A stretch of 51,948 bases of DNA, taken from Desulfocapsa sp. Its GTDB lineage: Bacteria > Desulfobacterota > Desulfobulbia > Desulfobulbales > Desulfocapsaceae. Below are positions 20,361 to 39,269 of the stretch, in pieces (the stretch's first letter is position 1; each line of letters begins with the position of its first letter). The stretch covers positions 1 through 51,948 of the forward strand of contig JAQYVF010000029.1 of the NCBI GenBank assembly GCA_030145625.1. Reading direction: 5' to 3'. A model generated the notes under the pieces. That model was not told where the DNA came from. It ran no database searches and saw nothing but the letters and a program-made list of their open reading frames with translations. The translations under genes and the position numbers were made by a program.

Positions 20361-20543
20361 TTATTCTTCTATGAATCCAATCCCCTTACAGGTTGGGCAT
20401 GGCAAATCCGGACTGCATTGGCAGTCGTTCCAGTCACTACCATCTTGAGTTCCTCGCCACTCACTGTTACACTCACAGGTCCCTGGGATTATTTTTTCGC
20501 CGCAACATTCAGGACATTCTTTTTTGGTCTTCTTCTCGGTCAT
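20361..20543 (-). CDS. Small zinc-ribbon-like protein
   Basis: 60 residues from ATG 20543, preceded by GGAGG at 6 nt. Cysteines occur in CPECCG, CEC, CQC and CPTCKGIGF; the last resembles a DnaJ zinc-finger CxxCxGxG repeat. Eleven Cys in 60 residues suggests one or two bound zinc ions. No function is known. The promoter region holds an 11-bp perfect inverted repeat. Confidence 0.7.
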   Translation of the reverse strand: MTEKKTKKECPECCGEKIIPGTCECNSEWRGTQDGSDWNDCQCSPDLPCPTCKGIGFIEE

Positions 20544-20695: not shown

Positions 20696-21268
20696 TTACT
20701 TAATCAAACGATACGGATAAGCCCGTTTTGTCCATGGACTTGCAGGAAAATCCTTCTGCAAGTGCTCATATGCCTCTTTAAGTGGTTTCGGGTCATTGCT
20801 GCTCTTGTACTGACTGACTCCGACCTGAAATATCGCTTCAGGCGCTGTATCACTTTCAAGATGGTCAACAAGAATTCTCTCGTAGTTGCTGAGTGCCTCC
20901 TTGAACTCATTTTTATGAAAGAACATATTGCCAATGCCAAGCAATATTGAAGGAACCAGTTCTTCAGGGTTTAAAAAACCGATGGTTCGATGATGTTCAT
21001 TCCCTTCCTGATCAAGAATAAGGAGAGCAGGTGTCCACTGAATGTTGAAATCCGAAGAGATGGGGGCCAGATCAGAGGAAATCTTTAAAGGAATAACAGT
21101 CTTATTCAGGAATTCAATCACTCTTTCTGTTGGATACGTAACTGCATCCATCTGTTGGCAACCAATTCATTGTGGATTAAAAAAATCCAGGAAAATTGGC
21201 TTATTTTGTGCCCTTGAACAGGACAAGGCATCGTCTAATTCTGTTTCCCAATTAATTTTTGCGTTCAT
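20696..21268 (-). CDS. Thioredoxin-like selenoprotein with UxxC motif and TPR-like tail
   Basis: A 190-residue protein read through an in-frame TGA at 21167-21169. A start at ATG 21268 has AGGAGG upstream. Residues 1-33 match the start of a thioredoxin fold (PIFLDFFNPQ); TGA is codon 34 and is followed by IGC, giving U-x-x-C exactly where the catalytic CxxC stands, then QQMDAVTYP as in thioredoxin-like DUF255/TlpA types. About 24 nt after the UGA a 7-bp stem (21131-21137 with 21144-21150) closes a 6-nt loop AGUUAC with G at position two, the features of a bacterial SECIS. Residues about 95-190 look like a TPR-type helical repeat. A standard gene caller would report only the part after the TGA (20696-21151). 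Confidence 0.82.
21131..21150 (-). promoter_or_regulatory. Bacterial SECIS hairpin
   Basis: On minus, TGGATGC pairs with GTATCCA (one G-U pair), loop AGTTAC. The loop begins 24 nt after the UGA; published bacterial SECIS elements need a short stem with a G in the first two loop positions about 16-37 nt from the UGA. It would bind SelB to direct Sec insertion. Confidence 0.75.
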
Positions 21269-21284
21269 GAGCGAACCTCCTAGT

Positions 21285-22053: not shown

Positions 22054-22308
22054 ATGCATGATAAAAAAGAACTGTGCAATAAAATTGTAAAAATGTACCC
22101 GGAAATAGGTCAATGTGAAATCGATATCATGGTGAATTGGAATGACAAGAAAAATGTCTGGGTTGTTGATTTAAAAAAAGACAATCATGAACTCCAACAT
22201 TACCTGGAGGAGTCGGATGCTGATGCCTGTATGGAGAACAAACAGTGTGTCTCTCTGGGCCTCGAGATCGCACAACTTGTTAACAATATCAAAGGGGAAC
22301 AATATTAA
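22054..22308 (+). CDS. Small conserved-looking protein of unknown function
   Basis: 84 residues, with GGAGGG upstream of the ATG. The sequence is acidic, with three Cys (CNK, DACME, QCVSLG) and no signal peptide or membrane segment. The segment NVWVVDLKKDNHELQHYLE followed by DADACM suggests a compact alpha/beta fold. Similar short proteins seem to occur in sulfate reducers, but I cannot assign a role. A possible regulated promoter and a MITE copy lie upstream. Confidence 0.6.
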   Translation: MHDKKELCNKIVKMYPEIGQCEIDIMVNWNDKKNVWVVDLKKDNHELQHYLEESDADACMENKQCVSLGLEIAQLVNNIKGEQY

Positions 22309-22604: not shown

Positions 22605-22961
22605 ATGTCTACTATTGAATGTGCTGGAAAAATGATTGAAACTGATAACGACGGATTTCTTTCTCATCTTGATGATTGGAACGAGGATGTCGCTCAAGTA
22701 CTGGCATCGCGAGAAGGTGTTGATACCTTGTCTCGGGAACAGATGGAAATAATATCCTTTATGCGCAGTTATTATTTAAGAAACAAGGTATTTCCCATCT
22801 TGAATCAATTATGCAAAATTGTTCATCAATCGAGGAAATGTGTCAATGAACAATTCATCAATCCTGAAAAGGCGTGGAAGATAGCAGGACTCCCCAAGCT
22901 CAGCGGTATTCATTTTATAACCATGGATGGGGTGAATTATAAAATGGAAGAATGCTGTTAA
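22605..22961 (+). CDS. DsrC/TusE-family protein lacking the canonical cysteines
   Basis: 118 residues from ATG 22605, which has AGAGG upstream (a longer frame starts at 22569). The fold signature is clear: DGFLSHLDDWNEDVA near residue 17-31 and KAWKIAGLPKLSGI near the C-terminus. DsrC proteins end with two redox cysteines in ACK...GLPKPTGC; here they are Trp and Ile. Instead a 16-residue extension ends in the vicinal pair CysCys. A canonical DsrC carries the trisulfide in sulfite reduction; this paralogue may have moved its thiol chemistry to the new tail or act as a regulator. A gap of 268 bp follows. Confidence 0.85.
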   Translation: MSTIECAGKMIETDNDGFLSHLDDWNEDVAQVLASREGVDTLSREQMEIISFMRSYYLRNKVFPILNQLCKIVHQSRKCVNEQFINPEKAWKIAGLPKLSGIHFITMDGVNYKMEECC

Positions 22962-26044: not shown

Positions 26045-26671
26045 TCATAAAGCCATGCAAGACCGATGGATTACGGCCCCAACTGGGTTTGCCGTAACAA
26101 CTGACGCCTTGCTGAGCATCTCAACAGTCTGCCGGGCAATTTCAAGCTCCTCGTTGGTGCGCACCAGCAGCACCTCTACCCTGCTCTCCGGCGCGCTGAT
26201 ACGCAGCCAGTCATCTAAATGCCAAGTGTTGGCCATTCGATTCAGGACTATCCCCAAACCTTCCAGTCCGGAAAGAACACCCTCACGCACCTCCTTGTCA
26301 TTCTCACCAATACCGGCAGTTAAGACCACGGCATCCACCCGGCCCAGCACGGCAAAATAGAAGCCGATGTACTTCTTGATACGGTAGACAAACATGTCAA
26401 ATGCCAGTTGAGCCTTCTTATCACCATTCTCACGGGCGGCATGAATGTCGCGCATATCATTCATGCCACACACTCCCTTAAGTCCTGAATATTTGTTGAG
26501 CATGACATCAATGTCTTCGATATCCATCCCTCTATTGCGGTGGAGAATGGCATGAAGGGACGGATCAACATCACCGCAACGTGTACCCATGACCAATACG
26601 CTTTCCGTATCCATATCCAGCAACTGATATTTGATGGAGGAACTCCCCGAATTAATAACCAAGATCTTCAT
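26045..26671 (-). CDS. ackA: Acetate kinase with the central half deleted
   Basis: 208 residues, whereas acetate kinase is normally about 400. The start is normal (MKILVINSGSSSIKYQLL, with Asn7, Ser10, Ser12 and Lys14). At residues about 25-29 it jumps directly to MGTRCGDVDP, which in other family members lies near residue 240, and continues to the true C-terminus (TAGIGEND, TNEE). About 190 residues are missing, including the equivalents of Arg91, His123, the catalytic Asp148 and His180, so the protein should be inactive. The frame is kept across the junction. It may be a real deletion or an assembly collapse. The preceding pta is also broken. Confidence 0.88.
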   Translation of the reverse strand: MKILVINSGSSSIKYQLLDMDTESVLVMGTRCGDVDPSLHAILHRNRGMDIEDIDVMLNKYSGLKGVCGMNDMRDIHAARENGDKKAQLAFDMFVYRIKKYIGFYFAVLGRVDAVVLTAGIGENDKEVREGVLSGLEGLGIVLNRMANTWHLDDWLRISAPESRVEVLLVRTNEELEIARQTVEMLSKASVVTANPVGAVIHRSCMAL

Positions 26672-26675
26672 ATTA

Positions 26676-28789
26676 CTATCCTCTATCCGCCTGGGCCTGG
26701 ATGGCGGTAATGGCCACAGTATTGACAATATCAGGCACGGTGCATCCGCGAGACAGATCATTGACCGGCTTTTTCAGCCCCTGAAGGACCGGACCGATGG
26801 CCACAGCATTTGCGGCCCGCTGAACTGCCTTGTAAGTATTGTTGCCGGTGTTCAGGTCAGGAAAGATAAACACGGTGGCATGGCCCGCCACATCGGAACC
26901 TGGCATCTTGATGGCTGCCACCTCCGGGTCGATGGCGGCATCGTACTGCAGCGGCCCGGCGATTGGTACATCCAGGCCACGTTCATCAATGAGCTGCCTG
27001 GCAATGGCCGTGGCCTCAACCACCTTATCCACATCTTCTCCCTTACCGGAAGTGCCGGTAGAATAACTGAGCATAGCCACCCGCGGTTCGATGCCGAAGA
27101 TACGGGCCGTCTCCGCCGAACTGATGGCAATCTCGGCCAGACCGCGGGCATCGGGGTTGGTGTTTACGGCGCAATCCCCGAAGACCAGGATGCTGTCCTT
27201 GAGACACATGAGAAAGACCGAGGAAACGATTGATGAACCGGGTTTAGTCTTAATAAACTCGAAGGCCGGGCGAATGGTCTGGGCCGTGGTTGTCACCGAA
27301 CCGGAAACCATCCCGTCGGCCAACCCCTTATAGACCATCATGGTGGCAAAATAGGTGGGGTCCGACATGCGGTCACGGGCAGTATCCTCAAGGATCCCCT
27401 TGTGCCTGCGCAATTCACCATAGGTTGCAACAAAATCCTGCAGGTGCTCGGATTCGCTGGGATTGATGACATCAGCCCCTTTGATATTGAGGCCGAAAGC
27501 AGAAGCCCTGGTGCGGATCTCCTCTTCACGGCCAAGCAGGATGATATCGGCCACACCCCGGCGCAGCAGGATATCGGCAGCACGAAGAATGCGCTCCCCG
27601 GACCCTTCGGGCAGGACGATGCGCTGACGGTATCGGGCCGCTTTCTCCACCAGGGAGTACTCAAACATTTTGGGTGTGACCTTAGATGAACGCCGGGTAA
27701 CCACCCGCTGCCGCAGTTCAGGCACATTGACAAACCTGGCAAATCCGCCCAGAGCAGATGCAATACGCTGACTGTCTTCCACTTCGATGCGGCCATAGAG
27801 CTTGTTCAACAGCTGAATGGTCTGATAGGTGTTGCCCTCAACAGAGATCACCGGCACAGGTACACCGGTCCATCCCTCAATGAGCCGATGCTCGCTCTCG
27901 CCCAGCTGCAACCCACCGGTGAGGACAATACCGGATATATCCGGGTACAGACTGGAGAGACGGGAAGAGAGGCTGGCCAGTATGATGTCCGAACGATCGC
28001 CGGAATGATGATCAGGCTGCCAGCCTTGATGTACTGGAGAAAATTGCAGATCTGCATGGCTGCGATCACATAGTCGTCCACCACTGTGCTCAACCCGCTG
28101 TGTCCGTAAAGCACCTGACCGTTGAGCCAGCGTTTGACGTCGATAATCGTCGGCTTACCCAGAGTTTCGTTCTCCGGAATACTGTAGAAATGTATAGACT
28201 GTTTGCAGTGCACCTTGCCCTGCAGTTCAGCGATCATATCCTCGGTGAATCCAGCAGGTGCCCGATTGATCACACAGGCCACCAGATCTACCCCCTTTTC
28301 CTCCAGGGTATCGATATTCAGCTGGGTGGAGCTGGTCACCTCTTCCGGCGTCTTTTCCCGGCCGGAAGACACCACCAACACAGGCGCGCCGATGTTTGCC
28401 GCGATATCCGCGTTGATATTGAACTCGAAGGCTCCGTCCTTGCCCTTGAAGTCAGTGCCTTCGCAAAGGACAAAATCATACTTGGCTTCCAGCTGCTTGT
28501 ACCTGTTCAGGATGTTTTCATGGAGAAAGGCCTGCTGGCCTGAATTGATTAATTCTCTGGCCTCGGTCAAGGTATAGGCATACGTCTCTTCGTAAGGGAC
28601 ATCAAGGCGAAAATGAGTGAGGACCAGATCGATATCATGATCCCTGTCACCAGTACAGGGATCATTGATGATCGGTCGGAAAATGGCCACCTTATTGAGT
28701 TCGCGCAGGATCATCTGCAGGACCCCGAGCACCACTGCGGACTTGCCGCTCAGTTCTTCTGTCGCCGTTACATAAAGATTTTTGGACAT
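26676..28789 (-). pseudogene. pta: Phosphate acetyltransferase, frameshifted
   Basis: Two frames together make a full-length Pta of about 700 residues. The upstream half (from 28789, SD GAGG) carries the N-terminal DRTGG-like nucleotide-binding domain (FVLCEGTDFKGK). The downstream half, to 26676, carries the catalytic PTA_PTB domain (RIVLPEGSGERILRAA, GLADGMVSGSVTTTAQTIRP). The switch is at about 28000-28003, where CGCC on plus needs one more C (the minus reading becomes IIIPGDRSDIILA). Without that base the first frame stops at 27848. It is either a real mutation or a missed base in a C-run. Confidence 0.88.
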
Positions 28790-36951: not shown

Positions 36952-38805
<1,854 letters not shown>

Positions 38806-38987
38806 TTATTGTTTACCAATAGGATGATCACGAATGCTCTGCCTGTAAAAATGACACACCACTCTCGCAGGAACAGTGTTTTCTCTTAAAGAGCAGACAC
38901 CGTGATCATTATATGGATTTTTGTTGATACTACCGGGGAAAGATATGCCGAATATGGCACAGAATGGCTAATAGTTCCGTTCATGAT

Positions 38988-39069
38988 GACTTTCCCTACG
39001 ACTTTATTACAAGTATCAGGTTCAAGGGGTCTACTCTCAGCCGGAACTCATTTCCGGCACCCCCAAGTC
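38988..39069 (-). promoter_or_regulatory. TPP riboswitch
   Basis: On minus the conserved order is seen: GGGGGTG, CTGAGAGTAGACCC, TTGAACCTGAT and GTAGGGAA, closed by a GACTT/AAGTC P1 stem. It lies about 195 nt before the thiC ATG. In the leader between, ATGATCACG (38824-38832) pairs with CGTGATCAT (38901-38909), which may belong to the expression platform. High thiamine diphosphate would reduce thiC expression. Confidence 0.93.
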
Positions 39070-39269
39070 TACGGTTTTCAATTTCAAACCGTCAATTGCA
39101 TTACAGACAAACAATTCCATCAAAGTAAGGTGCCGACGGAACACTCTTCCTGGAATAGTTGTCAGGGATACATCTTCCAATCCCTCACAAAGGCAAAATT
39201 TTTCATCTCCTCATAACAGGAGATTTTAAACGCAAACGAGTTCATTTCTTAGCGACACAGCCATTAAAG

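Follow-up and report, generated by a model that had tools for sequence, protein, structure and literature searches.

The window, by which we mean the whole stretch of DNA analyzed here, comprises 51,948 nt from Desulfocapsa sp. (GCA_030145625.1, contig JAQYVF010000029.1, positions 1-51,948). On its minus strand lies a gene of 190 codons (20696..21268), one of them an in-frame UGA, which runs from an ATG at 21268-21266 to a TAA at 20698-20696 and, when TGA is translated as selenocysteine (Sec, U), aligns with its relatives over nearly the full length. The UGA is codon 34 (21167..21169, minus strand) and falls at the first Cys position of a CxxC motif, as a preliminary description of this DNA had proposed. 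The active-site center of the 190-residue read-through protein reads NPQ-U-IGC, and Cys37 (21158..21160, minus strand), the predicted resolving residue of the UIGC site, is invariant in a 44-row family alignment (A1) and lost in eight divergent relatives. The same description had pointed to a good Shine-Dalgarno sequence and start, and we find AGGAGG at 21276..21281 on the minus strand, 7 nt 5' of the ATG; of 55 family genes, 46 have GGAG no more than 18 nt from the chosen start and 30 have AGGAGG. It had also held that ordinary gene calling misses this gene. Indeed, the mechanical list of open reading frames (ORFs) contains in its place only a 151-aa ORF (20696..21151, minus strand), which starts at an ATG after the UGA. 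No signal peptide or membrane stretch was seen by eye in the window protein.

Several other features of the window were recorded. Just downstream of the UGA-containing gene is a 60-aa Cys-rich ORF (20364-20543, minus strand) with no Pfam match. On the plus strand, positions 22054-22308 encode an 84-aa protein with no Pfam family over the cut-off, whose relatives lie near family genes in 11 of the 187 loci described below, the window copy not being counted. Divergent from the UGA-containing gene is a gene for a DsrC-like protein (22605-22961, plus strand; PF04358, 72.6 bits), which ends in MEECC and in this differs from the usual DsrC arm. This gene, 1.3 kb away, prompted us to consider a link with DsrC, which we rejected because a DsrC-like relative is found near family genes in only 6 of the 187 loci, the window's included. 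Farther along, an acetate kinase gene (26117-26674, minus strand) lacks its middle, with profile positions 3-29 adjoining 241-403, a gap that reflects either decay or an assembly error; a full-length copy is present elsewhere in the genome (contig C75). A pta-like sequence, assigned by eye, adjoins it in two overlapping frames (26676-28789). A TPP riboswitch (RF00059, 70.3 bits) occupies 38976-39074 on the minus strand, just upstream of an ORF at 36952-38793 named by eye as ThiC-like.

We assessed the in-frame UGA by comparison with relatives. A search of 193 genomes of the order yielded 55 places at E <= 2.6e-41, 54 with one TGA and one with no stop, and a search of 395 genomes of the phylum yielded 91 places at E <= 6.5e-36, of which 80 have one TGA and 11 have no stop. 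An in-frame TAA or TAG occurs in none of the 55 and 91 strongest places. The 48 genomes searched from the family of Geobacter sp. AOG1 contributed 40 places, spread over 39 genomes: one TGA is found in 19, none in 20, and two in a single Geobacteraceae gene (G602). We then searched 279 loci again and obtained 243 matches at 1e-20, which reduce to 187 unique genes, including that of the window, once duplicates are removed. The TGAs of 174 of these genes all share one alignment column, and the remaining 13 genes carry TGT or TGC there. The alignment of relatives thus extends through the TGA and places Sec or Cys at the same position, an outcome on which the preliminary description had made its reading depend. 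Adding 20 places at a looser cut-off expands the set to 207 unique genes, with one TGA in 183 and none in 24. Eight of the 24, all from one family code (L299, L301, and L303-L308; f72), have lost the CxxC motif, with CxxS or an active site devoid of Cys in its place, and retain their match along the length of the thioredoxin domain plus tail. The terminal stop of the 181 typed Sec genes is TGA in 65, TAA in 62, and TAG in 48, with six running off the end of the locus; UGA is therefore not reassigned at large. The sequence is protein-like on both sides of the UGA, as previously described: in comparisons with six near relatives, dN is 0.28-0.41 for the part preceding the UGA and 0.18-0.28 for the part following it, well below a dS that exceeds 1 throughout and is saturated twice.

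The hairpin downstream of the UGA (21131..21150, minus strand) has the sequence UGGAUGC-AGUUAC-GUAUCCA in the order 21150-21131, and these 20 nt fold at -8.0 kcal/mol. Its loop, AGUUAC (21143-21138), begins at the 24th nucleotide after the UGA. A review (PMC13188914) sets the limits of a bacterial SECIS at a loop of 3-9 nt, an upper stem of 4-16 bp, a G in the first two loop positions, a distance of 16-37 nt from the UGA, and a minimum free energy of <= -7.5. With a 6-nt loop, 6-7 bp, a G at loop position two followed by U, a distance of 23 nt, and -8.0 kcal/mol, the window hairpin falls within these limits, and the 7-bp stem, loop, and 24-nt position given for it earlier are accurate. An Rfam scan returned nothing at the hairpin, its one match overall being the TPP riboswitch. 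Folding of the window sequence by itself also gave a result not beyond chance, as 26 of 200 shuffles of an 81-nt stretch were equally stable (z = -1.18). We thus relied on the comparison across relatives.

The ratio of observed to background codon entropy averages 0.94 over the 96 columns outside 0 to +14, and at the hairpin it is 0.36 for Asp +7, 0.76 for Ala +8, 0.56 for Val +9, 0 for Thr +10, and 0.65 for Tyr +11. Low ratios also occur elsewhere (Gly +2, 0.56; Gln +5, 0.69; Ser +149, 0.37; Ser +111, 0.45; Glu -26, 0.51). The synonymous codon freeze is thus strongest over the hairpin, though not confined to it. The Thr +10 codon is ACG in all 147 cases (149 of 150 in the larger set), and when Ser and Ala residues are included, the codon at this position is xCG in 176 of 178 genes; its fixed third base, G, is paired to the C that tops the stem. 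Among 152 distinct Sec 42-mers, the inner six of the seven pairs are kept in 94-100%, and the outermost (U-A) is kept in 40%. The pair 22-35 is A-U in 139 of the 178 Sec genes, G-C in 21, G-U in 6, and unpaired in 12, with at least 12 changes of type on the tree, or 10 when unpaired rows are left out. Sec hairpins average -8.8 kcal/mol, compared to -3.5 kcal/mol in synonymous shuffles that use each gene's own codons, and the median fraction of shuffles as stable is 0.03. The -7.5 kcal/mol level was reached in a 26-nt stretch by 130 of the 178 Sec genes and missed by 48. In 12 of the 178, at least one of the six pairs is lost; a similar hairpin forms by refolding in 10 of these, but not in the other two (L313 and L315). 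Codon freeze, pairing, and covariation together indicate that the hairpin is under selection. In the 13 Cys genes, 12 of which form one clade and so make a narrow control, the top stem pair never forms, two other pairs form in 15-23% of the genes, and the remaining three do so in 77-92%. Their hairpins average -5.3 kcal/mol against -4.1 kcal/mol in synonymous shuffles, with a median fraction as stable of 0.50. The SECIS stem is broken where Cys replaces Sec.

Residues 1-106 (20951..21268, minus strand) form the thioredoxin-like domain. In Pfam, Thioredoxin_2 (PF13098) scores 35.9 bits against a cut-off of 27, and Thioredoxin_7 and Thioredox_DsbH are also over their cut-offs. An AlphaFold model built from 44 rows (mean pLDDT, 97.1) shows a thioredoxin domain followed by a short TPR tail, and the thioredoxin part matches DsbD-gamma, DsbH, and thioredoxins with VIA Z scores of 12-15 over 100-132 aligned residues. 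The preliminary description had the protein fused to a TPR-like tail, which we place at residues 107-190 (20699..20950, minus strand). Pfam TPR matches remain under the cut-off (17.7 versus 27.8 bits), but structure-profile and fold searches do return TPR proteins. The sequence profile search of solved structures found an engineered TPR at 1.9e-10 and CpoB at 2.4e-10. Modeled alone, the tail reaches a pLDDT of 97.2 and aligns with BamD and the YbgF (CpoB) TPR at VIA Z scores of 12.6-13.3 and an rmsd of 2.2-2.8 over 84-92 residues, values that helical folds can reach by chance; Foldseek with the tail alone found no match at E <= 0.001, the best being YbgF at 2.7e-3. The invariant residues of alignment A1 include the active site and W78-T79-P80 as well as E144, G150, W179, A183, and P185-Y186 in the tail, which is conserved equally with the whole protein (mean column identity of 63% in both).

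The preliminary description had asked whether the genome carries selA, selB, selC, and selD, and all four are present. We detected SelB (374 bits), tRNA-Sec, the product of selC (73 bits), SelA (491 bits; truncated where its contig ends), and two SelD genes over the cut-off, each with one in-frame TGA (C120:48950-49891 and C211:62964-63893). Among 40 chosen genomes, SelB occurs in 20 of the 21 with a Sec form and in 15 of the 19 with a Cys or other form; the one Sec-form genome in which SelB was not found (G156) is a draft of about 310 contigs. SelB hardly separates Sec from non-Sec genomes, so that loss of the machinery mostly does not explain the Cys replacements, and the replacement of Sec is mostly a gene-by-gene change. 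We constructed a FastTree phylogeny of 202 rows (178 Sec, 16 CxxC, and 8 neither), having dropped 5 of the 207 genes as short. The tree requires six state changes (two to three forced by starred branches, depending on the state), with the non-Sec genes in five groups, a rough count because long branches meet in the tree.

These observations bear on how the UGA is read. That a thioredoxin gene is decaying here, its TGA being a nonsense mutation or a sequencing error, might be argued from an in-frame stop where relatives have Cys and from a hairpin that is not significant in the window by itself. We regard this as vanishingly improbable given that 174 of 187 unique genes share the same TGA, also beyond the names usual for the phylum, and that dN stays well below dS on both sides. 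It is also extremely unlikely that a 33-aa leader peptide and the 151-aa protein, the latter translated from the ATG beside the hairpin, are the products of two coupled genes. The downstream ORF does begin with an ATG, but in the Cys relatives a single ORF runs through the site without interruption, the codons preceding the UGA specify thioredoxin-like sequence under constraint at the protein level, and neither TAA nor TAG ever serves as the stop in the strongest places of the order and phylum searches. The inserted residue is not visible from sequence data, which leaves room for suppression, in which the UGA would be read as Trp or Cys and the hairpin would stimulate the readthrough. Against this very unlikely reading stand the presence of SelA, SelB, SelD, and tRNA-Sec, the fit of the hairpin to the bacterial SECIS model, the replacement of Sec by Cys in the other 13 genes, and the use of UGA as a normal stop in 65 of 181. 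It is thus highly likely that the gene encodes a selenoprotein with Sec at residue 34, a thioredoxin fold, and a TPR tail, belonging to a family predicted in 2004.

The preliminary description recognized a selenoprotein of the thioredoxin fold and left its family unmatched, a point that we now amend. Reviews list a predicted “Thiol:disulfide interchange protein” selenoprotein with PF13098 and UxxC (WP_011366075.1; PMC13188914 Table 1 and PMC9312934, as far as their text is available), and the available text of the former credits it to Kryukov and Gladyshev in 2004. In the accessible part of an earlier study (PMC1794560), the family is reported from Geobacter metallireducens, G. uraniireducens, and Syntrophus aciditrophicus, with three Sec sequences counted in 2006, compared to the 174 unique ones in our analysis. 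The window protein shares the Pfam family, the UxxC motif, and the kind of host, and it very probably belongs to this family, matched by description rather than by alignment to the reference sequence. Genome G603, which is probably G. uraniireducens Rf4, contains 11 PF13098 places over the cut-off, one of which has a TGA and is of the same family as the window gene; another TGA-bearing place lies below the cut-off. Neither TPR nor tetratricopeptide is mentioned in the available text of the two reviews that name the family (PMC13188914 and PMC9312934), and we did not find the TPR-tailed architecture among selenoproteins in the open-licence literature. The window family was likewise not seen in the portions available of PMC8318568, PMC1914089, PMC1088965, and PMC12013277. 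Within the parts of the literature surveyed, we have thus not seen the TPR tail, the frozen SECIS codons, or the spread to metagenome-assembled genomes (MAGs) named Nitrospirae and Planctomycetota. The window protein stays under the cut-off of every one of 18,950 NCBIfam models, and the NCBIfam matches of 44 scanned members likewise include no model of the family. With no fitting model, it is probable that many family genes have been annotated as truncated thioredoxin-like ORFs, although one RefSeq Sec record is cited in the reviews.

The window protein shares the thioredoxin fold with the C-terminal domain of DsbD, DsbH, and the Thioredoxin_2 and Thioredoxin_7 families, and solved DsbD-gamma and DsbH structures are among its best matches. 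In contrast to these known proteins, which have CxxC, it has Sec and a TPR tail and no visible membrane domain or signal peptide, and it scores 37.9 bits against a DsbD cut-off of 330 (NF001419). TsoB and VPGUxxT, which are also seleno-thioredoxin-like and among the best NCBIfam matches, differ in motif and lie far under their cut-offs (NF045694, 37.5 versus 805 bits; VPGUxxT, 24.1 versus 350 bits).

The chaperedoxin CnoX (YbbN) has the same domain order, thioredoxin then TPR, and the YbbN/CnoX structures 3qdn and 3qou rank 2 and 4 in Foldseek, with a TM-score of 0.43 by query length and an rmsd of 11-20. The window protein could accordingly be a genuine selenoprotein that acts as a CnoX-like holdase instead of a disulfide reductase, which we consider unlikely. 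In the accessible text of PMC8129009, the TPR domain of CnoX consists of two five-helix subdomains, and a surface Cys63 traps clients. The tail of the window protein is shorter, being one short helix block at residues 101-188, and the absence of any Cys after residue 37 leaves it with no counterpart of Cys63. Its UxxC active site also provides a pair that is absent from E. coli CnoX (SxxC). Overall, the window protein would work like thioredoxin or DsbD-gamma, and on the features compared it falls outside DsbD, TsoB, and CnoX.

The recoding signal of the family is conserved across many anaerobic bacteria. A DNA pattern with TGA identified at least 119 loci, three of which (L147, L152, and L229) have no tblastn match at 1e-20; a contig scan with a pattern spelling Cys at the active site found no relative. 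Among the matches listed, most are records named Deltaproteobacteria and its groups, including Geotalea, Geobacter, and Syntrophaceae. The listed matches also include MAGs named Nitrospirae, Nitrospinota, Planctomycetota (also Brocadia and Jettenia), and two actinobacterial classes, for which binning errors are possible. None of the 971 neighbor ORFs around the 187 genes represents a universal operon partner. Among 90 cases in which a gene follows on the same strand at no more than 250 nt, the commonest neighbor is cardiolipin-synthase-like (28 of 90; PLDc domains in the one scanned). In total, this neighbor is found at 30 loci, 28 with Geobacter, Geotalea, Geomobilimonas, or Geobacteraceae names or that family code and two named Deltaproteobacteria. 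A cluster of flavin disulfide oxidoreductases takes the same position in 9 of the 90 cases, eight of them in one family code and one of the nine scanned with Pfam, and no flavin oxidoreductase lies beside the window gene. Desulfoferrodoxin is encoded near three loci, and rubrerythrin-like clusters comprise eight and five loci, with one member per cluster scanned with Pfam. The flavin oxidoreductase, desulfoferrodoxin, and rubrerythrin-like neighbors are weakly consistent with thiol repair under oxygen stress.

We propose that SelB carrying Sec-tRNA recognizes the hairpin, which lies 23 nt downstream of the UGA, and places Sec at residue 34, a step for which the comparative evidence argues. The product would be a cytosolic protein of 190 residues with a thioredoxin fold, a U34-I-G-C37 center, and a TPR tail. 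The U34 selenolate would attack a substrate disulfide or an oxidized thiol, C37 would resolve the mixed bond, and the resulting U34-C37 selenenylsulfide would be reduced again by a flavin reductase of the thioredoxin-reductase type, while the TPR tail may dock a substrate or partner. The likely role of the protein is therefore that of a putative cytosolic selenothiol disulfide reductase. More speculatively, and in our view improbably, the family may represent a selenium-based chaperedoxin of anaerobes, in which a cytosolic UxxC thioredoxin with a TPR tail that holds clients or a fixed partner would protect the thiols of proteins upon exposure of sulfate reducers, iron reducers, and anammox bacteria to oxygen. 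The family, with its 174 Sec forms, several replacements by Cys, and a stem disrupted in the Cys genes, is well suited as a natural experiment on the requirements of a bacterial SECIS. Should the redox role be true, it would extend the cellular repertoire of sulfate- and iron-reducing bacteria by a selenium-dependent thiol reductase.
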